Below, piece after piece: positions 37,641-61,030 of a stretch of DNA of 64,000 nucleotides (position 1 is its first letter; every line of letters starts with the position of its first letter). Under the pieces are notes generated by a model, which saw only the letters and a list, made by a program, of their open reading frames with translations, did no database searches and had not been told where the DNA came from. The stretch lies in NCBI GenBank assembly GCA_013368325.1, contig JAACJK010000007.1:434001-498000 (forward strand). Reading direction: 5' to 3'. The translations under genes and the position numbers were made by a program. The stretch comes from Ephemerocybe angulata. Lineage: Eukaryota > Basidiomycota > Agaricomycetes > Agaricales > Psathyrellaceae.

Positions 37641-37753
37641 TTCCGTTATTCATATCCAAGTTCTACTCAAATTTGAAACGGGGTACAAGTCCGTCTATGG
37701 GTTCAGGACCGGAGAGAAGTAGAAGTATCGAGAAGCAAGAGAGGGAAATACAA

Positions 37754-38040
37754 TTTTTGAACGTGCTCTTGGTTACTTCCGAAGAAGCGTAAGCCCAAAG
37801 TCCCGCGGCAAGGGGGCACGAGGAAAGAGCCGGGCGCAGGCCCCGGCTCCCACCCACTTCGAGAGAAAGAGAAAGAAACACCCCGAGTACGACTCTCCAA
37901 CGCTTAGGAATCGTACTCGGCCCGCGGGGCTTTGTGCGCCCACTCATCGTCGCAGTACTGTTAAGTAGATGCGACGACTTGCGAGTGGGACGCGGCGTCG
38001 CGGGACTGTGCGCCCCCTTTGGGGGCGCGGGTGTGTGGGG
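37754..38040 (+). repeat. Direct repeat R1 (copy 1) with conserved hairpin
   Basis: Nearly identical to 38286-38605. The two copies begin 532 bp apart, and single-base differences are few until about 38020. Both contain the inverted repeat CCGAGTACGA / TCGTACTCGG (here 37883-37892 and 37911-37920). Function is unknown. Confidence 0.85.
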
Positions 38041-38109
38041 GTTGGGGTGCGGTGAGTTTGAGTGGGTCCTTCGGCTGTTTGATTGGGCTTGAGGCCGCTT
38101 GGGGGGCAT

Positions 38110-39210
38110 GGTTGTAGCTGGGCGCGGGTCAGAGGGGGTTGTGCGAGGAGGGTGAGACGTACTTTATGAAATATTGTGACATTTGCGTATATTTGGGGTT
38201 CTTCGTGTCTGGGAAACGGGTTAGAGGGAGTTGACGCGAGGAGGGTGAGACGAACTTCATGAAAATTTAGAGAAAGAAAGAGAATTTTTGAACGTGCTCT
38301 TGGTTACTTCCGAAGAAGCGTAAGCCCAAAGTCCCGCGGCAAGGGGGCACGAGGAAAGAACCGGGCGCAGGCCCCGGCTCCCACCCACTTCGAGAGAAAG
38401 AGAAAGAAACACCCCGAGTACGACTCTCCAACGCTTAGGAATCGTACTCGGCCCGCGGGGCTTTAATGCGCCCACTCATCGCCGCAGTACTGGTAAGTAG
38501 ATGCGACGACTTGCGAGTGGGACGCGGCGTCGCGGGACTTGTGCGCCCCCAGTGTGCAGCCGCTTTGGGCGGCTGCAGTGAGGGCACGGGTGTGTGGGGG
38601 TGTGTGGGGGAGATAGCGGAGAGCCTTGGGTATTTTGTGGCGGTTTGGTTTAAATTTCTTCTTCGGATGTTTGGTTTGCGGCTTGAGGGAATTCATCGGG
38701 GCATGTTTATCTGGGGCGCGGGTTAGAGGAGGTTTGGGCGAGGAGGGTGAGACGAACTTCGAGTTTGGCAGTGCCTATCAGGGTCGCTCACCCCAGATGC
38801 CATGTAGCGCTTGTGCCACATTCGGGCACGAAAAACTGGGGCATAGGTTAGACTCGGGGGTTTACGCGAGGAGGGAGAGACGCACTTTATAAAAGTTTTA
38901 AAAATCCACGGTCGCCTTTCAGGTCCATGACTGGGGAACATGTTAGAGGCGATCAACGCGAAGAGGGTGAGACGAACTTCGAGTTTAGCAGTGCCTATCA
39001 GGGTCGCTCGCCCCAGATGCCATGTAGCGTTTGCGCCACATTCGGGCACGAAAAACTGGGGAAAAGGTTAGAGGAGGTTAACGCCAGGAAGGCAAGACGG
39101 ACTTTATAAAAGTTTTAGAAATCCCCGGTCGCCTTTCGAGTCCATGGCTGGAGAACATGTTAGAGGGGGTTAACGTGAGGAGGGTGAGACGAACTATCAA
39201 AATTTGGAGG
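38110..39210 (+). repeat. Tandem array of ~217-220 bp units, plus direct-repeat copy 2
   Basis: A recurring block GAGGAGGGTGAGACGAACTT heads units starting near 38750 and 38970, about 220 bp apart, with a related partial unit near 39180 and diverged units near 38140 and 38240. Each full unit carries CCCAGATGCCATGTAGCG and CATTCGGGCACGAAAAACTG. The second copy of direct repeat R1 (38286-38605, hairpin at 38414-38451) lies between diverged units. Confidence 0.75.
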
Positions 39211-48012: not shown

Positions 48013-49511
48013 CTAAGTCTCCTCTGGTGTATCCTCAAACAAACCCAAATCAACCACTGCAGGCTCTATAGTGGATCGATACACATCTGGCCCGACGACA
48101 AGTCGTTCGCCTGACGCGGAGTTTCCAGTTGGCATCATCCGTAGTCGCCAGTACATCTCGGAAATCCAGTGGCGGTGGACGATCCACCCAAGAAAGCTCC
48201 CCATCATAACTTCGTGGAACTTCAGGTAGTACTGAGCGTCCAAATAGACCGTGGCACGGGGTAGGTCGCTACCTTGATGCAGCTTTACTATCTGCTGCCC
48301 GTAATGGGCACCAAAGAGCCCGCGCAGATAGAAGAGTCGGATTTCGCACCGGATTCGTTTGGCCTCCGCCTCGCTCAAAGAATCGCCCTCCCGGACGATT
48401 GTCTTATCTGGATCTCCAAAATAAGTCCAGTCGTAAGGAACATCGTCCCAAGCCGTTTCAGCTGGCCCTTTGAGGGCGATAGGGCTTGTGAAGGTGGTCA
48501 TCATGTCCAGTGGGAAGGAGGAAGCGAGCATCAATGGCAGGATCTGGGCGCCACTCCAGTCAATAACACAGGCAACCTTTGGATCGTCCGATAAGAGGGA
48601 CTCCTCATCAAAGAATATGTTGCGGAGTGCGAGGTCAGGGTGGTGTAGGACAAGAGGAGTATATGGTTTGGGGATCTTGAAGTAGGGGATCAAGGCAGAT
48701 AGCTTCTGGTATCTATCCATCAAATCGTGGGGTGTATAGCGTTCAAATTCAAGGGGCGGAAGGTATTTCTCATCCTGTAGCAGCATTCCTCAATTCCTCC
48801 CAGGAGACACTCCTCATGAGATTCACGCCACATGTCCTCGACCGACTTGTAAGGGCCGCCCAGGCTTTCGCCGTTGATCGCCATTAATGGCCCAACGGAA
48901 AACGTCCCCGAGGAGTCGACTACAAGACTTCCAATTTTGCTGAATGGAACCGGCTTGGAAAGAGAAGCCTTCAGTCTAGCCATCGCTTTCACAAGCGCGA
49001 CTTGCTGAGACTCTGGCACGGCGCGGAGGCCATGGAACCATCCCGGGTCGTCGTCGCGAACGGCCAAATTGAATGCCTTCCCCTTGATGAATTCCATTAG
49101 GACATACGGCGCCCCAGCAGGATTTTCGAAGTTTGTATTCCATGCGTAGACTTGGGGCACTGATACACCGGGGTACAGTCCGGATTCGCGGACAAATCAC
49201 ATCGTCGCGATCTCGGATTCCTTCGCGGCTGGGGAATAGTCTGGTTCGAAGGCCCCGGAGGGCCTGGAAACGCTGGCAGCCAGCTGCGTCCCGTCGCTAA
49301 ACTCTAAGCGATAGACATAGTTGTATTCGCCTCTTCCGAGGAAAGATATGGATAGGCAGACAAGGGAAGAAATATCCCCCCCGACTTTTGATTGTCGCTC
49401 AGAAAGGTGGCCTGTGCTGCAGTCGATCAAGCCTCGGAGATTGAACCGTTTTGCTTGGGGGAGAGAGGAGAGGTGCTGCTCGTCTAAAGGAAGAGGGAGG
49501 GGGACGGTCAT
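48013..49511 (-). pseudogene. Aminoglycoside-phosphotransferase-like (APH) gene with stop and frameshift
   Basis: The ATG at 49511-49509 starts MTVPLPLPLDEQHLSSLPQA, with GRGEYNYVYRLEFSDGTQLA as the nucleotide-binding loop. At 49199-49197 an in-frame TGA interrupts SEIATM|FVRESGLYPGVSVP QVYAW where family members usually have Arg. Further on, YVLMEFIKGKAFNLAV is intact. At about 48783-48790 the frame shifts by one base (EECLLGGIEE to MLLQDEKYLPPLEFERY) with no room for an intron. The C-terminal half keeps LVLHHPDLALRNIFFDE (HxDxxxxN) and CVIDWSGA (the metal-binding Asp). The family phosphorylates small molecules; the substrate in fungi is mostly unknown. Two lesions in an otherwise well-kept gene suggest recent inactivation. 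Confidence 0.82.
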
Positions 49512-49998: not shown

Positions 49999-51507
49999 TT
50001 TCAGGGTCACAGCAGGCATTGAAGTAGTCGCGGACGTGTTCTTCGCTGTCTGTCGGGAATCGAGTGTCTTCATGCCAGAGAGGCATCCATCTGCGGGGGA
50101 GGCGAAGCCAGCGTCGATAAAAGTTGTTCCAGTACAATGTAACATCGTTGACCCAAGCGAACGGGAAGTCTCGTTCAAATCCCTCCAGCACCTCAATCAA
50201 AGGCATGAAACCCATCTTGCAGTTCCTGTTCATGCCAGGGACTCCGGGCACCTTCATCGTCATCATGGCCCACACTCGGCCCTGTGGGATCAGCCCGAAG
50301 TGGGGTGTGATAGCGGTAGCCGGGGTGGCGGAAGGGCGAGGGGGCTGAGGGTCGGGATCGAACTCCTCATCGTCGGACTCCATGTTGCCTTCGCCTTCGC
50401 CTTCGTCCCCAGTATCAGCCTGCCCAGTGTTGCGTTCGTCTTCATCGTCACCTTCGGCCATCGCTTCATTGCCCTCGCTCCCCTCACCTTCCCGGTCCTC
50501 GTCCATCGCTTCATCGCTCTTTCTCCCATCGCCTTCACCGTCCTCATCCATAGGCTCGTCGCCATCACCCTGCTCCTTCTCGTTCGCCTCTTGAGCCTCT
50601 GGGTTGTCCCTCATCCTAATCACGAAAGTCAGCATAGATACATGTATTCGAAAAGTTAAATACACTTACTCAGATGGCTCCCCGAGGGGCCGGGTGAGCG
50701 CCTTCAAGCGTTTGGTAGCGAGGTTGGCCTTGGTGATAAGCGCGAGGGTGGAGCTCGAGGTGGTCGTCCGGTTCAAGGTGGAACGAGATGAAGCGGAAGA
50801 CAAAGGCGCTTGCTGTGCTGCGTCCTCGGCGGGAACATGGCGAGGCTGCGGTATCCCAATGCCAAAGGGGATGAGGCTCAGGTTACGAGGCCTACCACCC
50901 CCTGAAACGACAGGGGTTGACTGTGCTGTTGAGTCGTCGGCCGCGATAGTACCAAACGATCTCCTACGGGGCGTGAAGAGAGGGCTAACCCCAGGTCCCA
51001 AGTCAGATTGTGGACACACGAGCGAGGTAGAGATAGACATGTACCTGGTCTGAGGGGGAGTCGCTTCAGGTGGGGCCTGAGGAGCAACTTGACTGTCGCC
51101 AGTATCCTGAGCTACCTGCGCACCAGAGGCAGAGACCTCACTGGAAAGAGGTCAGTCACATAGTCCCGCACGAAAGAGCAGACCCTCCTCGCTCAGCGAC
51201 CATGAGAGTCTAGCTGACGACGCCCGACGACCATGAGAGTCTAGTCGGAAGTCAGGTGACCATGAGAGTCTAGCCTGACAACGTCTAAACAATAGAAGAA
51301 CACAAAATGGGGGTGGGGTGGGGTGGTAGGAGGAGAAAGGTACGAGGAAGCACGGGCGCGGACGACTTACGGGTCAGGGGTAGCAGCGGCACCACGTCGA
51401 CCACCTCGAGCTGGGGCAACAGGTTTTGAGGCACGTTTACGAGATTTAGGCAGCTGAGATAGGCATTAGATTTGCGGTGTACGGCATGAAAGGATCGGAC
51501 GTACCAT
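49877..51507 (-). CDS. Mobile-region gene A: acidic protein of unknown function, chimeric 3' end
   Basis: The start appears to be ATG|GTACGT at 51507, followed by an exon LPKSRKRASKPVAPARGGRR G (51454-51371). A 230-bp intron (51370-51141) holding three hairpins comes next. Then exons read EVSASGAQVAQDTGDSQVAP Q... and RYMSISTSLVCPQSDLGPGV SPLF. The next exon carries a long Glu/Asp-rich repeat tract (DEDGEGDG, DEAMDEDREGEG). The conserved end is GRVWAMMTMKVPGVPGMNRN, FAWVNDVTLYWNNFYRRWLR LP and DYFNACCDPEN. The family recurs in mushroom repeat regions, but I know of no function. The last 40 or so codons are antisense to the APH fragment, so the natural C-terminus is probably lost. Confidence 0.6.
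51193..51279 (-). ncRNA. Cluster 1 of three covarying hairpins (intronic)
   Basis: Three copies of the motif, in transcript sense TAGACTCTCATGGTC, each enclosed by a different complementary stem. Hairpin 1: TCAGC/GCTGA (51193-51197 with 51213-51217). Hairpin 2: CCGAC/GTCGG (51224-51228 with 51244-51248). Hairpin 3: GTCAGG/CCTGAC (51251-51256 with 51274-51279). The inner GAC/GTC pair gives a 7-nt loop and a 2-nt bulge. The cluster lies inside the 51141-51370 intron of gene A, about 90 nt after its donor. Confidence 0.7.
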
Positions 51508-51565
51508 TTTGTATAGAGTATTCCTTTTTGGGGGATCGCAGAGAGATGTGGTGGTAGGAGAGAAA

Positions 51566-52040
51566 TAAGGCTGAGCACGAGTCCGGGTTGCCGGTGGGTA
51601 CCCGTGACTTGAACCGTGGGAAACCCGCCAAAACCCGGACCCGTGAGCTCGGGTCATCCGTGGGAAAATACCCATACGGGTCCGGGTATTGGATTTGAAA
51701 TGTGGTCAACCTGTGGGTAAGGCTGGTTTTGTCTACGATCTCTATAATTTATCAGTATTTAGTATCTGTGTGACAATTATGTTCGTATTGTCTAAAGAAA
51801 CATGGTTAAAGTATAGTAAATAAGCAATATACCCAGTATGTCTACACTCAGGATAAGCTATAGGCAAAATGCCATGGGTACTTGCAGGTAAACTCGTGGG
51901 AATACCCGCTGTGACCTGGATCCGCAGGTCGCCGGTGATCCGTGGGAAATACCCGTCTGAGTCTGGGTATTAAAAATTTCGTCATGGGTACCCGCCGGTG
52001 GATCCGGGTAAACCCACGGGTGCACTCGTGCTCAGCCTTA
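51566..52040. mobile_element. 475-bp hAT-type MITE
   Basis: A perfect 17-bp terminal inverted repeat, TAAGGCTGAGCACGAGT, lies at both ends, flanked by an exact 8-bp target duplication GAGAGAAA (51558-51565 and 52041-52048). Subterminal GGGTACCC/CGTGGG-type repeats follow. It has no coding capacity. The 8-bp duplication points to a hAT transposase. Confidence 0.9.
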
Positions 52041-52362
52041 GAGAGAAAAGAACAAACCGGGATCGAACGAGAGTTCTGTTTTTTATGGAGTTCGGGGGTC
52101 GGTCGGCCTTGCCACCCGTCCTGCCGCCGTTCGCACCAGTCTGTAGTACTAATGAACTATGGTATTTCAAATAAACGATAGGATTCTGAGATACTGTGTA
52201 GGAACGTATCGTAGGCTACCGGCGCCCGCATCACCGAGGGCCTTTGCCGCGGCGCGCTCCATGTGCAACCAGCCTGCGCCACAAGGTTCTGAAACAGAGA
52301 GAAAAACATAGGAGGTATCAGAATCAGCCTGAGAGGGAGGACGAATGAAAGGAAAGACTCAC

Positions 52363-53364
52363 CTAAGAGGCCCTTTGGAAAGCGAGAGTCTTGCGCCGAA
52401 ACTCAACAACGAGCTGCCCAGGACCTAGGATAGCCTCGCATTCCAGTTCGGATAGCTCGTGCAGGTACAAATCCACCCTGGCACGCAGCGTATCCCATTC
52501 CCGCCACACCCTCGTACAACCCTCCAGGTTAAGGGCCTTAGACTGGTACCTGAGGATCAGCTCCCTAACCTGGTATAGCTTCTCCTGCTCGTCTTCGAAC
52601 AACGTCCGTGTGCTCTCGAGATCCTCCTCTTGGAGTTGGGCGAACCTCTCGCAGATATTCGTGAGGTACTCCTTCAGAGGCCTGTTCGATACGACCTCGC
52701 CAAATTGCTCCCACATGATTGGAATCCGGTCTGCCAATACAGCCATCTTGGATCGAGGTGGGGCGCTATGAGTTCAAGTTAGCATCGTCAACATCAGCGA
52801 CAAAATCCAAGAGCCCCATCGGTCGAACTTACGCAGAGGGAGGGAGAGCTGTGGCCGGGGCTTTTCTCGCAGGGGCAGATGTAGTCCCAGGTGAAGGGGG
52901 AGTACATGAGCTGCTAGCCGTGGTACCACTAATGATTCCTTTGAGCGGTGTAGCAGCTATAATTCGATTAGACTCACGTTGCTCTGCCACGGTCGACGTT
53001 GCTACTGCCTTTGAGGGGGGGTTCCTGGGGCTTCTGTTTGCGCGACGAGATGCGTTCTGCTCTACCTACGGTCGTGAAAACAGAGCGCCGGGTCCTGGAG
53101 ATGCGTTTCGCTTTGTTGATCTCTGTCTTGTTTCTGCAACACTTTATCAGGGGAGTCACAAGAAAGGTACGACTGGACTCACATATCGTAGTACTTGCTG
53201 CTTTTCGCTCGATTCGCCGCCTTCTTCGCCTCGAGGCTGTGATAAAGCTTGGGTCGACCGCCTGGCATTGATGTGGTAGTCTTGAAAGAAGGAAAGTTGG
53301 CTAACCGGGGACTTATCAGCGCGGCTGATCAAACGGCTGGAGGGGAACTTACAGACTCTGCCAT
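52363..53364 (-). CDS. Mobile-region gene B: unknown protein with basic KxANRAKSSKYYD motif
   Basis: The ATG at 53364-53362 gives MAES, then an intron, then TTTSMPGGRPKLYHSLEAKK AANRAKSSKYYD, a basic N-terminus often seen in proteins of mushroom repeat regions. Further exons read KTEINKAKRISRTRRSVFTT, GRAERISSRKQKPQEPPLKG and a Pro/Ala linker. The last exon reads MAVLADRIPIMWEQFGEVVS NRPLKEYLTNICERF ... LYQVRELILRYQSKALNLEG C, which is probably coiled-coil. It stops TAG at 52365-52363, directly before a GTGAGT. A TATA-like CATAAAAA lies near 53445. DNA binding through the basic motif is a guess. Confidence 0.55.
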
Positions 53365-53899
53365 GGAACTTCTGCCAGTACCTGCACTCTGGGTCTAGCA
53401 CCGTTCGGTAGAGGACAGATACCGCTTTCTTGTGATATAATTTTTATGGGGGGCGGGGCGACAAAACATCCTCGCCAATGTTTAGACAACCTGAAATGAC
53501 AGAATCAACATGAGACTTAAGTTCAATCATTGTGCCAACGGTGCATGGTCTGACCTTAACTCAAATCTTGAGGATACCCAGCCGAGTGTAGGGTCGTTCG
53601 GAAGCTAATTATTTTCTGCATTTTATGAGATTTTTTTTCATGGGCGAGAATGGAGGGAAGTGCTTACAATATGGAGTCGAAGGTGGGGCGCGGATCAGGA
53701 AAGGTTCCCTCATAGAATGGACCCCTGCCCGGCCCTACGGTGCTGAAAACCAGTCCTGACCACGCCCAGTGCTTTTACTTCAGTACTGAAAGTGCTTTGA
53801 GTGAGGTACCTGACCATTGCACAATGTTAGCTGGGATTTTCGAAAACATCAGCTATGGGCGCTTAATATCCGAAAGGCCATTCTCTTCCCAGCTACAGG

Positions 53900-54412
53900 T
53901 AGTGCCTTACAGGCTCGGGCTCAAAGCCGCGAGCCGGGCCAAGCCGGGCCTTTACAGGCCAAGCCGAGCCGGGCCTTACCCAATATGGCAGTGGGGCCCG
54001 GCTGGGCTCAAGGCCCGGCTCAAAAATCCGCGCCCGAAAAAGCCGCGGCCTAAGCCTTGACCGGCTCAAAGATACCAAATGGCACTTTGGTGCAGCGGTT
54101 ATGGCTCTGAAAATGTGTCCGCAAGGTTGCCGGTTCAATTCTCACTCATGGTATAGTAGTATTTTGGACCCGGATGGCCCGCAGAACTCAACTGACAACC
54201 TGTATATACATTGAATACAAAAAATTACTGACCATGACAGAGATTCAATAGAAAAAATTTGTAGTGGAGGGCCGCGGCCTAAGCCGTGAGCCGAGCCGGG
54301 CCTGACCACTTTGGGGGCTCAAGGCTGGGCCCACGATTTCGGTGGGCCTTGGCCGCCCAAAGCCGGGCCTTAGCCGCGGCTTTTGGGCCGGGCCTGGGCC
54401 TGTAAGGCACTA
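53900..54412. mobile_element. 513-bp hAT-type MITE containing a tRNA-like segment
   Basis: The terminal inverted repeats TAGTGCCTTACAGGC are flanked by an exact 8-bp duplication GCTACAGG (53892-53899 and 54413-54420). The arms are rich in GGGCC/GGCCC/GCCGCGGC inverted blocks. The central part holds a tRNA-like stretch, listed separately. Confidence 0.9.
54079..54155 (+). other. tRNA-like (Pol III A/B-box) segment inside the MITE
   Basis: TTGGTGCAGCGGTTATGGC resembles a tRNA A-box/D-arm, and GCCGGTTCAATTCTC resembles a B-box/T-arm, about 35 bp further on. The acceptor stem does not pair well, so it is a tRNA relic or a SINE-like promoter captured in the MITE, not a working tRNA. Confidence 0.5.
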
Positions 54413-54423
54413 GCTACAGGCTT

Positions 54424-54507
54424 GGGCGACCATGAGAGTCGAGCCCTAGAGCCGACCATGAGAGTCTAGGCTCCATACAAGCTACGGCGACCATGAGAGT
54501 CCAGCCG
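54424..54507 (-). ncRNA. Cluster 2 of three covarying hairpins
   Basis: Three copies with stems GGGC/GCCC (54424-54427 with 54443-54446), GAGCC/GGCTC (54449-54453 with 54469-54473) and CGGC/GCCG (54485-54488 with 54504-54507). The core GACCATGAGAGTC is identical in all, and the bulge is GA, TA or CA on this strand. In minus-strand sense the cluster starts about 55 nt after a GTAAGT donor at 54562. The MITE target site directly abuts it. Confidence 0.7.
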
Positions 54508-54559
54508 CAGGTTGATATCCTATAGCGAGGGAGGGAGGGAACCGAAGTGGAAGTGAACT

Positions 54560-54720
54560 TACGGAGGAAGGGCTTTTTGAGTGTACGTCGGTCTACGCTA
54601 ATTGAGGTCAGTGACTAATATGTTCGTCAAAATAAAGGCTTACCTTGTCGACGTCTGAGCGCGCGAGGGTTGGAAGTCGAGGGTGGTGGTTGAGAGTTGA
54701 CCTTCTCGAGTCCCAGGCCC
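54560..54720 (-). other. Putative short exons upstream of hairpin cluster 2
   Basis: Two exon-like blocks on the minus strand are bounded by good signals. One ends at GTCGACAAG|GTAAGC near 54647. The next runs from ACCTCAATTAG| to CTTCCTCC|GTAAGT (54563-54597). No ATG in frame is evident. They may be 5'UTR exons of gene B, or the start of a lost gene. Confidence 0.35.
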
Positions 54721-55037
54721 AGGTGTACAGCCCCTAAGCCTTGTGTCGCGTCTAGGTTAGGGTCCCATTTAGGGTCCCATCAATTACCCTTTCTCTCCGG
54801 TTCTCCCATCTCCCAACGCGTCTTCCGCTAATGCGTCTTCCGCTACAACCATACCCTCCGACCTCTCCAACCAGCCGCTATCCTGTAAGTTCCCATTAGC
54901 CGGCTCAAAGTGACTCGTACGCTGATACAGATATCTAGTTCGTTTCTCAGTATCGGAACATATATCTACTCGCCCAGCATCCCAGTGAGTCTCTCCCCCG
55001 ATTCCCTTCTCTTTTACTATCGTTCTCTTCTACGGTT

Positions 55038-55134
55038 GGGAGGCTCGACTCTCATGGTCGCTTCCCTGAGCCCTCGGACTAGACTCTCATGGTCGTCCGC
55101 CGTAGGTGCTGGGCTAGACTCTCATGGTCGCCCA
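55038..55134 (+). ncRNA. Cluster 3 of three covarying hairpins (5'UTR intron)
   Basis: Three copies in plus-strand sense with stems GGGAGGC/GCTTCCC (55038-55044 with 55060-55066, one G-T pair), CGGAC/GTCCG (55075-55079 with 55095-55099) and TGGGC/GCCCA (55110-55114 with 55130-55134). The core GACTCTCATGGTC is invariant; the bulge is TC, TA, TA. They lie in a probable 192-bp intron (54985-55176) just before the gene C start codon. Confidence 0.7.
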
Positions 55135-55178
55135 CTTTACCTTTTACCGCTGAAGGTTTATTGATCCACCGTCCAGTA

Positions 55179-58100
55179 ATGTCCGGTACGATGACTACTA
55201 AGGCTGAACGCGTCGAGCCTTCGGCGGGGAGTAGCATTCTCGACCGCCTACCCAACACTGGAATCACCCTGAAGGTTTATACGCATCCTGGATGCGAATC
55301 AGTTGGTGAGTTCCCCCCTGTCCCGTGTGCATGAGGTTGATAACTGACCTACGAAAGACGACTATGCGGTCACCGACGTCCTCGCCTACTTCGCCACAAA
55401 GCTCCCTGTTCGTGCGGAGGAGGTGTTAGACGACACCGGCCTTCGACGATATATCCCCGATGGAACGTTCTGGGTCATCACGAGTCCCAACCAGCGGTAC
55501 ATTGTGTGGCCTCCCCTTGGCCATCGAGTGGTTCGCGCATTGGCAGACGGACATTACGGCTACGACGATCGATCGCGTTACCCTCAGTTCTACACCTCCA
55601 AGGCCGAATACATGATGTGCATCCCCCGGTACTGCGCTGAACTCGAACCTCTCTGGACCCGCCTCCTGCCGTCCAATACCTTACACATCCCGGGCGTCAC
55701 TTGCGACAGTATCCGCATCCTCAATTCAATGGTCCTTGGCCGCCTTAGGCCCTTCAAGGAATGGTACACGAAGGGGGTCCTCGAGCTGCTGAAGACGCGC
55801 CAAGCGAGCCTAGCCGCGCTCCTCGTTACACACATGTCCCAGTGCTTCGACCGCCTTCAGATGGGAATGACCTTCCGTTCGATCCTCCAGACGTATGCGG
55901 ATTTCCAAAGGACATGTCTCGAGATTCGCAGCTACCTCAACTACGTCAAGATCTTCCTGCCTCGCGCTGAGACTCTACCCCTCAAAAAGTATCCGGTCGA
56001 CCACTCAGTAATGGGGGCCTTCACTCATGACCTCTCGGACGCTCAGAAGATTGTGCAGATGGGTATTCCGGTGTGGCTGGTCCGCCCGTCCTGCGATATA
56101 CTTCCCGATACAACTGTTCACGCTGATGCGCCTTCAGCGCATCTACCCACTAAAAATCGTGATTTACCTTAATAAATACGTGATTCCCACTGCATATCAT
56201 CTATCAAAAGACCTGCACCAACGTAAAGGGGAACGAGAGTCAGAGCCGAGCCCAGAGCTGCTGACTTAGCCTCTCTGACCTACGCGCGGGACTACGAGAA
56301 GTGACGAGTAGCCTCAAGCGGGTAAGACCTACCTTTGCGAGACACTTGCTACTTTAAGGAGACACGAGCGGGACAACTATGGGATCGACTTGGCAAGTAA
56401 CGAACATAGGCAGAGTAGTGCGTATCAATGGGAAGCCCCCTACCCATCCCTTCGTATCTCGCGAGAACACTCTCGCCACAACCAGAGTCGAGAGATCACC
56501 GTGACATCAGTAGTCGAGAGGGATTGCACCCGAGCCCCTGATAAGCGCCGGAGTATAGCTCCCGCGCGACTTGATCTTCACGAGAGGTGGCACGTCGAGA
56601 GGTCGATCACACCTCGAGATGTTCGCAATCAAAACCACGTCTCGGGAAAGTTCTGGGATCGCCATCGGCTGAGGGGAGAACTCAGTACAGGCACCCGCGT
56701 GTAACACAGGAGAGGCGGAACCGGCACATCTTAGGCGCCCACACGGTCTCCCAGCCCGGGTATCGGAATGATCACCCCCGGCTCCACTTCCTCAGGGGAG
56801 AACCACAATCAGAGATAAAGATAGATCGTACCACACGAGACGGGTGGCGCGGCGTGTACGGAGAAGTCGGTTGGTGGCAACGGCACAGTCTTGGGTATTT
56901 ACCCGGGCGCTAATTGGCCTTGAGTTCAACCTCGAGAGGTCTTCCCTCCTATCTCTATGTTTCACTTGGACTGTTTTGGAATGTATCGCGATCGCATGTG
57001 TTTTTCATCTGTTTGTCTTTGAGCTTGTTTGTAAATATTCGGCATGTACTTAAGTCTCGCGAGTAGTTTAGAGAAAATCAGTTACCCCCCAGTTTTCATC
57101 TTTCAAGTCTCTAAGTCAAAGTCCAAGTCTAGCCGTCGCGCTATCTGTCTGTCTGTCTGTCTGTCTGGTCGTCGTGCCAATTGTCTTTAAGTTTTCTGTT
57201 CCTTTCGCGAAGCTCTCGAGCCTAGTGAAAGCCCTCTCGTGGTAGCGACCTCGTCCTCCCGAGACCCCACCTTCTCCCCGAGAACCTATATCACCCCGAA
57301 GCGCGGTCGAGTCTAGAACTCCCCTTCAAACTTGCTAGTTGCGAGTACCTTAGAGTCGACCTAGTCCTCTAGTCCAATACATTACTTTGCCCGCTCTACC
57401 TCGAGCGAGTTGCCCCTCAGCTACCCTAGTGTGGTTGTGTGTGTGTTGTGTGTTGTGTTTGTTGTTTTGGTTAGAGGCGTGTTTGGCTCTTAGCCCCGTA
57501 GCCACACATCAACGCCGACGCCAACGTCAAGATGATGCTCAAGAACGCTGCGCGCCACGACCCAACCATAGTGACGGAGGACTATTCAGAACCATCGCAG
57601 ACACCCCCATACCCGGAAACCCCCTTCCCCTTTCCAGTTCTCTATCACGGAGCTCCTGGGACGGACATGCAGTTGGCGCTCCAGAGGATTGGATGTCGGG
57701 TGTCTGGACGAGAGCAGGCGTCGGCGATTGGCGTTTCCCAACAAGAAGAAGGCAACGGTTCTGGTCGCCACTACCGCATCGCCCAGCTCATGCCATGTGA
57801 GTCCTGCCGAGCCCTAACGGTTGTATATTATCTAACTCTAATATCTAGATGTCGTCTATCAACTTCCTTCGGGACCGGGAACGAGTGGGTCGTCCAATCT
57901 CCTCCCATCCCAGGGAGCGACGGTCGTCTTTGACCTGGCTTGGATACCGGCGTGGAGCGAAGCGGTTGGCGCCCTCCCAGCACAAATTGAGGCGAAGAAG
58001 GAACTCCGGCGCGGTTCTCTGTTTCCGCCCCCTCATATCCTGATCAACTCGAGCAACATCAAGCTTTACCTGGCAGCGTGGCTAGCAGTTCGGCCTGCTT

Positions 58101-58945
58101 ACATCACCGAGATCTTGGAGAGGCTGGAAAGTTCACCGGTGGCGCTGAATACTCAACAATGGCGACACTACCTCGATAAGCTCCGGTGTCATTTATCTGC
58201 GAACGACCCAACTAGCTCTGGAGAGCCGTCTGCTAAGCGTCCCCATGTCGAACAGAAGGGAAAGCAGGGGAAGAAGAAGAAGGAGAAGGGGAAGAATGTA
58301 AAGCCGGGATCTCGGGTGGATAAGGGGCGACAGGAGCATGAGTTCTTTGCCTCCCTCCCTCTTAGGACTGAAAGGGTGAATCACATCGCCTGGCTCGATA
58401 AGGAGATCAGGTTGAACACTCTGGAGGACGTCGAACGCGAGGTGACACAGGAAGTCCGGAACAAGGTCGTGTGGGAGCTTCACGAGCTCAACTTCAGGCT
58501 TGAGCTGCTCTTGCTTGATCAAGCGCTAAGCCCGGAGGAGTGGAAGCATCTGGCTGGGTCCGAGGTGCGGATGCAGCGGGAGCAGGTGCTACGGCGTGTC
58601 TTTCCTGTCGTCGAGGGACAACATAGCGGGTTCTTCGTCACGGCGATTCCTAATGTCGATGGGGGCCTGGCATCTCAGGACTGGCAGGAGCGTGCAGCAC
58701 ATGTTCTGGCGCTGCGTACAGTGGTGCTGAGCTGGCCCAACTGTCCCTCATCAATCGTCAACGCCTGCCTCGAGATGGAGGAGAGGACAATGAGGGATGT
58801 TGAACGGCTTGTGGTTAGGCATTACTGCCGTACCTTCCAATCTGTCTTTGGACGGCCCCCTACCGCACCTGTCCGACTTCCTTCTGTATCGCTGAGCCGG
58901 ATTTCGCCCGCGCCTTTCTATGGGGGAGTGGGCGCAGGTGTTTGA
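55179..58945 (+). CDS. Mobile-region gene C: large protein of unknown function, interrupted by 1.4-kb insertion
   Basis: The ATG at 55179 lies 2 nt after a likely splice acceptor. Exon 1 ends LKVYTHPGCESV; exon 2 (from 55358) reads DDYAVTDVLAYFATKLPV ... YIPDGTFWVITSPNQRYIVW PPLGHRVV ... YPVDHSVMGAFTHDLSDAQK ... MGIPVWLVRPSCDILPDTT. After a 1.4-kb interruption the protein resumes: NAARHDPTIVTEDY, PPYPETPFPFPVLYHGAPGT, and then (after an intron) AWIPAWSEAVGALPAQIEAK KELRR. Next come a Lys-rich tract (KGKQGKKKKEKGKNVK) and HIAWLDKEIRLNTLEDVERE V..., ending PAPFYGGVGAGV. This two-part architecture recurs in Agaricomycete repeat regions; no function is known to me. The frame across the interruption cannot be restored by simple excision, so the gene may be dead. 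Confidence 0.6.
56115..57508. mobile_element. Candidate solo LTR (TG...CA) within gene C
   Basis: A 1,394-bp non-coding block splits gene C. It begins TGTTCAC and ends CACACA (TGT...ACA termini). It is flanked by ACAAC on the left and TCAAC on the right, a 5-bp target duplication with one mismatch. It includes a (GTCT)n microsatellite (about 57145-57167) and a TG-rich tract near 57437. No internal retrotransposon genes are present. A very long intron is the alternative. Confidence 0.4.
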
Positions 58946-59254
58946 CGCGTTGGTACGTCCATCTCTCCCTATGATCGAATGTTTGTTTATTCATTTATAA
59001 CTTCTAGGAATAATTGAACGATTTCGCTGGACCTTCGGACTCTCATTTATAGGTGCGTACATAGTTCTCAAGATCTCACATCTCTCACCGTTTCTAACGT
59101 CTTTACCCTTTGTAGAATGCATCTTTACAAGTACTTCAGTCTGTAGCAAACGAATTTCTATTTTGGGCGTTGCTTAGTCAGATGGCGAACGATTTTACTG
59201 AGAAAGATAAGATGGTAGGCCCCAAGCCGTTCGTTTCTATTAATCCTTTTTCCT

Positions 59255-61024
59255 ATGTTCAGGCTCCCTTCAAGCATAAGACGCAAGAAGGCCAGGCCAG
59301 AGACAGGATCACGACCCCGATGGTCAGCGGCGACGAGCTCCCCAATCCGAAAACCCTACGGTTCATCGCGCATCTCGATCTTCCCTCCTGTCGACGTTCG
59401 GACTCCATCCGGCCCCTTTGTTCAACTCGACGGTTCATCGCCTTCAAGACCTGTCAACGCGCACTCCCCGACACGTATCGTATCTCTCCACCCCCCTAGT
59501 CCTCCCCAGAGTCAACGAGATCCACGACGCGCGCAATGGCAACGATGGACAAGGGACATCATACCCTCCCTCGTGCCAGTGTTCTTGGAAGTGCTTCGCT
59601 CATCGGATGACCTCCGAAACGTGTCTCGGGACCCTTCAACATGCGGCTGTATGCCGACAGTCCGAAAATTGACCATAGTTCTGGTGTCTTGGGAAGGTGA
59701 GCGGCATTGAATGTCCTGGTGCGACGCGACTGACCGGATCCTAGGCCTATCGTCCACCACTGTTTGTTCGTGCAAACCGGTCGCTCTACTTCTACGGATG
59801 GGCTACCTAGCATCGGCTCCTCTACGGCCGACGTATGCCTTCGACATCCAGATGCTGGACTTCGTGCGACTTCTACACCTTCGTTCTCCCCCCAATAAGA
59901 GCGCGTGGACTTCTACCTTGGAGGCTTTCTTGTTAGCCAGAGGCTATACTATCAATGGGGCGGATGTCATTCGGAGGAAGTTCACGGCGGCGTTGAAATG
60001 GTATACATTGCTCCATGTCGAGAGCGACGTCTACGTTCGTAAGGCGATCGTGCGCTTGTCTTCAAGTGGCGGTACGGTGTCTGAGGAGGGGAGGGATGGA
60101 GTCGATTCAGGGGATTGGGAGGACGTGGAGGACGTGGAAGAGGGTCTGGGAGAGGACGGGATGGCCTACCTCGCTCGTTGTTGCCCGTGTTGCTTTGGTG
60201 GGGATGTTATCGACGAGGACGAGAGTGATGAGGACGAGGAGGGTCGTTCCGACACCGGGATCGGCGATTCAGAGTGAGCATTTTCCTTTACAGTGATCTG
60301 TGGGTAGGTCTAATGCAAGGCCTTCAGCCCAGACGTGGTTGTCTGCCTCGATGCTTGCTTCACTCAGAAGAGACGCACCCCTGTCCGCGGTGTCGGTACC
60401 GATCCGCCACTGCGACAACCACGAAGCGTTGTCCTGACTGAGGAGGAGGTGCTAAAGGCAGAGGAGGAGGTTGAACGGCGTCGTCCTAGTCGACAACCCC
60501 CGCCGATCGGGAACCCGACTACCACTGCTGACAAGATCGAAAGGGGGATGAAAGTGCCGGCATCTGTCCTGGATGCGTGTAACGATTCTTTCAAGGCGGC
60601 GGACGAGAAACACACGAAGGCGAGCACGAAGTACTTTGCAGATACTGGCTTGATGGCCCTTCTGTGTAGACACGACCGTGTTCTCTGGATAGCCAACATG
60701 AAGACTGCCGGGGAGCGTCAATATTTCGCTATCGCTCTAATCACGAAGCTGTTCGAGCATCTTCCGAAGTCAACAACGGTCGGTATCATGTACGATATCG
60801 GCTGTCAATTGGAACGAAGCTGCAACAAATGGGGGCTCATGCCGACGCTGTTACCGAGAATAGCGTGGGCTGTCTCTATCTTCCATGCCTATGGGCATCA
60901 ATGGCCCTGTCAGCTAGTTTATCACCCTCGGAAGCGCAAGGGCTTCGGGCTGTCGGACGGTGAGGGCTGTGAACGATTTTGGAGCGCAATCGAGTTCATG
61001 ATCCCGACTCAATGGGTTTCTGGG
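59255..61024 (+). pseudogene. KDZ (Kyakuja-Dileera-Zisupton) transposase, 3'-truncated
   Basis: The ATG at 59255 gives a basic start (MFRLPSSIRRKKARPE), then RDPRRAQWQRWTRDIIPSLV P and a Cys cluster (CGCMPTVRK ... VCSCKPVALLLRMGYLASAP). After an intron come FDIQMLDFVRLLHLRSPPNK, FRRKFTAALKWYTLL-like sequence and YLARCCPCCFGG. A further exon carries the catalytic-type blocks VVCLDACFTQKRR, CNDSFKAADEKHTKASTKYF, GLMALLCRHDRVLW, GIMYDIGCQLERS, FHAYGHQWPCQLVYHPRKRK GF and LSDGEGCERFWSAIE. These are family hallmarks: the acidic pair, and the CRHD and HPRKRxGFGLSDGEGCER segments. Similarity ends at WVSG|GTACGT (61024-61030). The several hundred residues that normally follow were not found downstream, so the copy is truncated. 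Confidence 0.8.
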
Positions 61025-61030
61025 GTACGT

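Follow-up and report, generated by a model that had tools for sequence, protein, structure and literature searches.

Triplets of covarying hairpins in predicted introns of KDZ transposon genes of Ephemerocybe angulata: a possible pre-mRNA recognition array

The window considered here, a stretch of 64,000 nucleotides of the agaricomycete Ephemerocybe angulata (contig JAACJK010000007.1, positions 434,001 to 498,000 of the forward strand), harbours a copy of a KDZ-type DNA transposon in its block of about 50-61 kb, and within this copy nine short hairpins are arranged in three triplets, termed A, B and C after the accessory genes to which they belong. The triplets occupy corresponding positions in related elements of the genome, lie in sense orientation behind splice donor signals, are conserved between element copies and covary in their stems. 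An even chance is given to the reading that the hairpins constitute a pre-mRNA recognition array of this transposon group, which would be bound by a trans-acting protein and would gate splicing of the accessory genes. Removal of the introns by splicing, binding of a protein to the hairpins, the origin of this protein from the element itself and its control over splicing are inferences from the sequence. The hairpins of the window are located as follows.

51251..51279, minus strand: hairpin A1, first of triplet A; C.A at the first pair, then 6 bp; C-G at this pair in the C134 and C115 copies
51222..51250, minus strand: hairpin A2; A-T to G-C compensatory change relative to the C134 and C115 copies
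51191..51219, minus strand: hairpin A3, assigned by stem pairing
54482..54510, minus strand: hairpin B1, assigned by stem pairing
54447..54475, minus strand: hairpin B2, assigned by stem pairing
54421..54449, minus strand: hairpin B3, assigned by stem pairing
55038..55066, plus strand: hairpin C1, assigned by stem pairing
55073..55101, plus strand: hairpin C2, assigned by stem pairing
55108..55136, plus strand: hairpin C3; C-G to T-A compensatory change relative to the C115 copy

As reported in an earlier note on this DNA, the core GACTCTCATGGTC occurs in nine exact copies, which form the triplets at 51198-51270 (minus strand), 54428-54501 (minus strand) and 55047-55129 (plus strand), and all nine are directly preceded by T and one variable base. 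When up to two mismatches are allowed, the window contains 11 matches compared with 2.0 +/- 1.3 in shuffled sequence, and none of 100 shuffles reaches 11. The statement that all nine stems are complementary holds for eight of them, which feature 4-7 contiguous pairs (G.U counted) adjoining the bulge, while the ninth (core 51258-51270) carries one mismatch, the C.A at its first pair, and then six pairs. The inner part had been described as a 3-bp GAC/GUC helix closed by a 7-nt loop; in the RNA energy minimum, GACU pairs with GGUC instead, giving a U.G closing pair and a 5-nt loop. The core alone does not bring a stem with it, because chance and solitary cores almost never pair over at least 4 bp: at least four stem pairs are present in none of the 68 IMG/VR chance matches to TNGACTCTCATGGTC, in 0 of 6 solitary cores elsewhere in the E. 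angulata genome and in 2 of 23 prokaryote cores (nine contigs), which are taken as chance.

The genome (58.7 Mb, 232 contigs) contains at least 170 matches to the KDZ family, counted per exon, and an exact search for the core returns 23 copies. Nine are those of the window, C134 has seven in one cluster group, C115 has one, and the remaining six are solitary and stemless. The lone exact core on C115 has diverged neighbour cores, and a scan with up to four mismatches reveals that the C134 and C115 elements each hold three triplets at the same three gene positions as the window. Outside the triplets, these two copies are mostly about 67-78% identical to that of the window, apart from two stretches of 92-96% identity to C134. 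The latter correspond to window positions 55022-56129 and 57512-58999, other long aligned stretches being about 70-77% identical, and this patchwork suggests a mosaic that arose by recombination or gene conversion between elements. Homologs of genes C and B led to further elements, including C47, C67 and C117, of each of which 4.3-4.5 kb was read; all three match the window in triplet position but have another core, of 12 nt (GACTCNTTGGTC and its variants). Their gene C leaders hold two triplets in two separate predicted introns, either of which follows a duplicated exon, the unit of exon and hairpin intron being tandemly duplicated (L143 720-1010, L144 3400-3830, L145 480-840). The seventh element, C147, features an 11-nt core, GACTCYYTGTC, and five triplets.

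The distribution was also assessed genome-wide by patterns for two neighbouring hairpins. The 13-nt form matches 18 times, always in the elements of C28 (the window), C115 and C134; 45 of the 47 matches to the 12-nt form lie in the elements of C16, C37, C47, C67, C117 and C217, the other two being stray; and all 10 matches to the 11-nt form fall in C147. Reversed control patterns of all three forms return no match. Altogether, ten elements carry the module in three loop classes (I, II and III, with 13-, 12- and 11-nt cores), and each class is restricted to its own group of elements. KDZ matches adjoin the triplets also on C134, C115, C47, C67, C117, C147, C16 and C217, while the C37 copy sits at a contig end and has no KDZ match beside it. 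The hairpin statistics below refer to 78 hairpins in 26 triplets from the seven elements read, i.e. the window, C134, C115, C47, C67, C117 and C147; the near-copies C16 and C37 are known from pattern matches only, C217 from pattern and model matches in locus L115, and none of these three contributes to the 78. Each of the 26 triplets holds three hairpins with a core spacing of 26-44 nt. In the KDZ tree, the class I elements group together (92/94, below the starred threshold), and the hairpin-free C146 element stands with the class III element C147 (88/95). In IMG/VR, neither the pair patterns nor the gene C protein retrieved relatives. Being internal and at the same gene positions in different elements, the triplets resemble neither a miniature inverted-repeat transposable element (MITE) nor a terminal or subterminal repeat.

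Two repeat structures were observed apart from the hairpins. C134 (693.5-694.7 kb and 708.7-710.6 kb) and C115 (547.9-550 kb) share inverted regions with a minisatellite repeat of about 146-bp period, which probably are the element ends. In the window, a cluster of direct repeats, up to 96% identical, is located at 37738-39209, outside the hairpin region.

The hairpin architecture comprises a lower stem, a U-N bulge, a GAC/GUC inner helix and a short loop. Hairpins were gathered by regular expressions requiring GACT..GTC, which in part builds in the constancy of these letters. Neither the bulge U nor a lower stem had to be present when hairpins were gathered for stem counts, TN being required in the genome-wide 13-nt and 12-nt patterns. 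All 78 hairpins have U as the first bulge base. Immediately beneath the bulge, 72 of the 78 form an uninterrupted stem of four or more pairs (G.U included), compared with 15.8% of 5850 combinations of arms swapped between triplets, and most of the six exceptions, judged by eye, have one mismatch or bulged base followed by more pairs. The swapped-arm and enclosing-helix analyses include nine hairpins of L149, whereas the register, cross-element, 69-hairpin covariation, wobble and intron controls comprise the 69 hairpins or 23 triplets available before these nine. Shifting the register by 1 or 2 leaves the 4-bp stem in 0 of 69 hairpins, and the minimum-energy fold of the respective triplet contains 63 of the 69.

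Covariation was counted with identical rows taken once. In class I (27 hairpins, 24 distinct), two-sided changes occur at 7 of 11 pairs, the other four being invariant; 52 cells are changed on both sides, which none of 500 shuffles reaches, while the number of two-sided pairs is reached by 16 and that of further pair types by 13 of 500. Across the 69 hairpins (64 distinct) there are 164 two-sided cells compared with 62 in shuffles, none of 500 shuffles reaching 164, and the covariation score is 0.53 compared with at most 0.14 for slid partners. These counts derive from one genome and are inflated by related element copies. Since the copies are related, the comparison of equivalent hairpins across elements weighs more: over the inner five pairs, it yields 12 compensated, 7 one-sided, 8 broken and 107 unchanged cases in class I and 35, 8, 28 and 105, respectively, in class II, as pairwise counts in which single events are counted more than once. 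For instance, the stem of hairpin A2 reads CCGAC/GTCGG in the window, CCGGC/GCCGG in C134 and CTGGC/GCCAG in C115. The proposal that covarying stems reflect a selected structure is thus supported, compensation being seen also between equivalent hairpins of different element copies. It had been stated that the proposal would fail if relatives showed the core without complementary flanks; checked on relatives within this genome, it stands. The shuffles, the register-specific pairing, the stemless solitary cores and the swapped-arm control rule out chance or a simple repeat as the origin of the hairpins. Likewise, the AUG of the class I loop was rejected as an upstream start, AUG being absent from class II and III loops and from several class I loops.

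In addition, a higher-order fold is apparent in 15 class I and II triplets of genes A and C, where the sequence 5' of hairpin 1 is base-paired to the spacer that separates hairpin 2 from hairpin 3. The resulting helix encloses hairpins 1 and 2 in a three-way junction, which is followed by hairpin 3. The mean duplex energy in these 15 triplets is -8.0 kcal/mol compared with -3.9 kcal/mol for mismatched triplets, and none of 20000 permutations is as low. Its sequence varies by element (CTACGG/CCGTAG, CTATGG/CCATAG, CATACG/CGTATG, CTGGGCG/CGCCCAG), and in gene A of class I it extends over just 4 bp. Two class II triplets of gene B feature a strong helix around hairpins 2 and 3.

Each module is a structured segment of some 140-180 nt that lies inside a single predicted spliceosomal intron. 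The predicted hairpin introns of the window are these.

51141..51370, minus strand: predicted intron 2 of gene A, 230 nt, with triplet A; donor GTAAGT, branch CTGAC, acceptor CAG; the frame continues
53810..54562, minus strand: predicted gene B leader intron, 753 nt, with triplet B; donor GTAAGT at 54562; the candidate acceptor at 53810 is uncertain
54985..55176, plus strand: predicted gene C leader intron, 192 nt, with triplet C; it ends 2 nt 5' of the ATG, and the layout is alike in C134 and C115

A strict donor, GTRAGT, is located within 110 nt upstream on the same strand in 22 of 26 triplets compared with 9.2% of random positions, and a looser one, GTRNG(T/C), 37-102 nt upstream in 25 of 26, random positions passing in 41% of cases (within 150 nt). 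The frame of gene A is kept across the predicted hairpin intron in the window, C134 and C47, where this intron measures 230, 213 and 190 nt, respectively; the seven ordinary introns measured, including that of C146, span 51-55 nt. In C147, a gene A-like gene, so named by place and basic start only, contains two predicted triplet introns (225 and 210 nt) that flank an ordinary intron of 54 nt. The sense orientation is maintained at all three shared gene positions and in the duplicates, which amounts to only about three independent events, and among the duplicated gene C leader introns of class II every duplicate holds a triplet.

The accessory genes and the transposase of the window copy are distributed as follows.

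51371..51507, minus strand: start of gene A, read from the sequence; ATG exon, 51-nt intron 1, exon 2 with Arg/Lys-rich N-terminus
52366..53268, minus strand: gene B; basic N-terminal exon from the ATG at 53268, C-terminal exon 52366-52773; no Pfam family above cut-off
55179..56169, plus strand: gene C, from the ATG to about the point of interruption by a 1.38-kb insertion
59711..60274, plus strand: CxC1 cysteine cluster (PF18802), KDZ-transposase-associated, E 1.8e-7
60335..61030, plus strand: KDZ transposase domain (PF18758), E 1.5e-58

An unspliced hairpin intron would add a single codon to gene A of the window before an in-frame stop, behind the peptide MLPKSRKRASKPVAPARGGRRGAAATPD, and in both the window and C134 retention of this intron would stop translation one codon past the Arg-rich N-terminus. 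Pfam searches with genes A (first 363 residues and pieces of open reading frames), B and C returned nothing above cut-off. Over 94% of its length, the gene C protein matches a partial hypothetical protein of Ephemerocybe angulata at 98% identity, and an AlphaFold2 model of it based on five sequences was unusable (mean predicted local distance difference test score 32). The insertion at 56130-57511 splits gene C of the window, the C134 sequence being uninterrupted there. Another insertion, MITE-like, with 24-nt inverted ends (88% complementary), occupies about 53897-54415 beside hairpin B3 and lengthens the gene B leader intron. In gene B leaders (e.g. L077 5220-5560 and L146 560-1610), T(T/A)(A/G)GCGCCC and AAGGTCAGA recur and are repeated also in the hairpin-free C146; several copies of this leader share a further recurring motif, CTTTCGAA(C/T)GA. 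Near the end of the gene A remnant, a weak APH phosphotransferase match (PF01636) below cut-off was noted at 48016-48789.

With respect to function, the structured introns sit in the leader of gene B and in that of gene C, and in gene A they break the coding sequence after the basic N-terminus; this position points to splicing or intron retention as the step concerned. Each hairpin would most likely be a binding site for one trans-acting protein: the bulge U, the GAC/GUC helix and the loop of each class are constant and hence are the parts that a binding protein would read, while the covarying parts need only pair. Three sites per intron, kept after duplication of the exon-intron unit, suggest that the number of sites matters, and they would most likely give cooperative binding. 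The restriction of each loop class to certain elements suggests a reader of the signal that travels with the element, which would probably encode the binding protein; by composition only, the basic N-termini of genes A and B are candidate binders. Binding would then decide between splicing and retention of the hairpin introns, whereby the accessory genes would be switched together. The earlier suggestion that a protein of the mobile block binds the RNA is consistent with the data and is the reading preferred here.

A simpler and in our view unlikely alternative holds that the introns fold passively, in which case the hairpins would only bring donor and branch point closer together or preserve the competence of the intron for splicing, with no specific binder involved. 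Such folding is compatible with triplets that lie downstream of donors and, where readable, upstream of acceptors, and with triplet introns that are long for these genes. However, it leaves unexplained the bulge U in 78 of 78 hairpins, the GAC/GUC helix, the near-constant class loops and the number of three per intron, and the homologous intron of C146 is predicted to span 51 nt without hairpins. Equally unlikely is a signal at the DNA level, i.e. extruded hairpins or cruciforms to which the transposase, or some other DNA-binding protein that the element encodes, would bind. The host elements are DNA transposons, and the lower stems are nearly all Watson-Crick (262 of 276 cells over the inner four pairs), as DNA hairpins would need too; yet the sites lie inside the elements and read in the sense direction, both at the three shared gene positions and in duplicates (the roughly three independent events mentioned above), 25 of 26 triplets lie downstream of a donor-like site, and G.U wobbles outnumber A.C, not significantly (7 versus 1 over the inner four lower pairs, p = 0.07; 12 versus 8 over the inner five). 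The cruciform transposase site that had been considered earlier is disfavoured on the same grounds, the triplets being internal, downstream of splice donors and sense-oriented. Slightly less probable still, and drawn by analogy, is a switch acting on the nascent transcript, in which an element protein would bind the hairpins early and alter elongation or termination. While the leader position in genes B and C, the bulged hairpins with a short upper helix and the repeated sites would suit this mechanism, it would not predict the coupling to introns, including the two in the coding region of C147. It is improbable that excised introns persist as stable RNA and work in trans, either as a decoy or as a small structured RNA, or that an endonuclease cuts the hairpins: an intron could be protected by the compact fold of several hairpins with a helix around them, but no Rfam family was matched at cut-off. 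Last in probability, and already largely refuted, ranks a functionless palindrome that spread within the elements as a neutral repeat; internal duplication does occur, as the exon-intron units of the gene C leader demonstrate, but compensatory changes at equivalent hairpins of different elements, register-specific pairing and the near absence of pair-pattern matches outside the element group speak against it.

Several observations also weigh against a recognition array that gates splicing. The gene B leader triplet of C115 has no donor upstream, the predicted acceptors are in part uncertain, and an automatic rule for branch point and AG, which is passed by 18 of 23 triplets, is a loose test that 47.5% of random positions pass as well. 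The E. angulata gene models found do not cover the start of gene A with its hairpin intron. The C146 and C214 elements have no hairpins in the 4.5 kb read of each; C146 nevertheless carries genes A and B, its gene A likewise has a basic N-terminus, and its homologous gene A intron is the 51-nt one without hairpins. No RNA-binding domain was detected in genes A, B and C as far as they were scanned. As for the structure, the number of two-sided pairs and the pair types in the 69-hairpin set are reached by 149 and 125 of 500 shuffles, respectively, the wobble counts are only suggestive of sense-strand RNA, and the enclosing helix is shown neither by the gene B triplets as a group nor by class III. 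A strict rule of three is weakened by one C147 triplet, which is adjoined by a degenerate fourth core-like stretch, and the history of hairpin gain and loss is blurred in the KDZ tree, where class II does not form one resolved group and the deep order is likewise not resolved.

Known systems offer partial parallels. In MAT2A, several similar hairpins in one transcript are bound by METTL16, which promotes splicing of a detained intron; there, six hairpins reside in the 3' untranslated region of a host gene, whereas the present motif is different, occurs as three hairpins per intron and belongs to transposon genes. The pairs boxB-N of phage lambda and, in human immunodeficiency virus (HIV), TAR-Tat and RRE-Rev exemplify short bulged or looped hairpins that are read by a mobile agent's own basic peptide and control its own expression, N with boxB and Tat with TAR acting on elongation or termination. 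To our knowledge, these RNAs bear no sequence relation to the module hairpins, and unlike the latter they are not arranged as triplets in spliceosomal introns of several genes. In fungi, introner-like elements are near-identical introns with predicted secondary structure that have spread over many unrelated genes. The module likewise consists of structured fungal introns, but it is confined to one transposon group and its whole introns diverge; instead of near-identical introns in many unrelated genes, the pair patterns detect these elements and the two stray 12-nt-form matches.

Rfam 15 returned no match at gathering cut-off in the window and, for seven loci with triplets, a single match at E<=1 (mir-2941, 24.6 bits compared with a cut-off of 60) away from the triplets. 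In open-access full text on KDZ elements, hairpin transposons and intronic or tandem hairpins with retention, nothing was recognised as this module, and no report came to light of a eukaryotic DNA transposon in which several genes have introns that carry a repeated structured RNA signal. Within the scope of Rfam 15 and open-access text, the earlier view that the motif is undescribed is therefore supported. The closest described relatives of the host elements are the Kyakuja/KDZ DNA transposons of Agaricomycetes (Kojima 2025, PMC12730594), with which the host elements share the KDZ transposase (PF18758) and the CxC1 cluster. That paper covers TET/JBP genes, termini (CA..TG in Kyakuja, with a 7-bp target duplication) and target sites, and in its main text 'hairpin' and 'stem-loop' occur 0 times (Kojima 2025, PMC12730594). 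In distinction from Kyakuja, none of the eight open reading frames of the window that were scanned matches the TET/JBP family. As an anatomical unit, the module is rated categorically new, while structured cis-acting RNA in the widest sense has known company.

Tentatively, and as a possibility rather than an expectation, the triplets may amount to a splicing code of the transposon's own, in which an RNA-binding protein of the element would read the triplets in one or several introns of every accessory gene, switch these genes on together and have diverged, along with its hairpin loops, into at least three mutually distinct specificities within one fungal genome. Should the element encode the binder, it would be a mobile element that coordinates its own genes after transcription, and the loop classes would constitute natural hairpin-protein pairs with separate specificities. 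In any case, the module offers a way to recognise this group of elements and to ask how transposons silence or activate large accessory genes.

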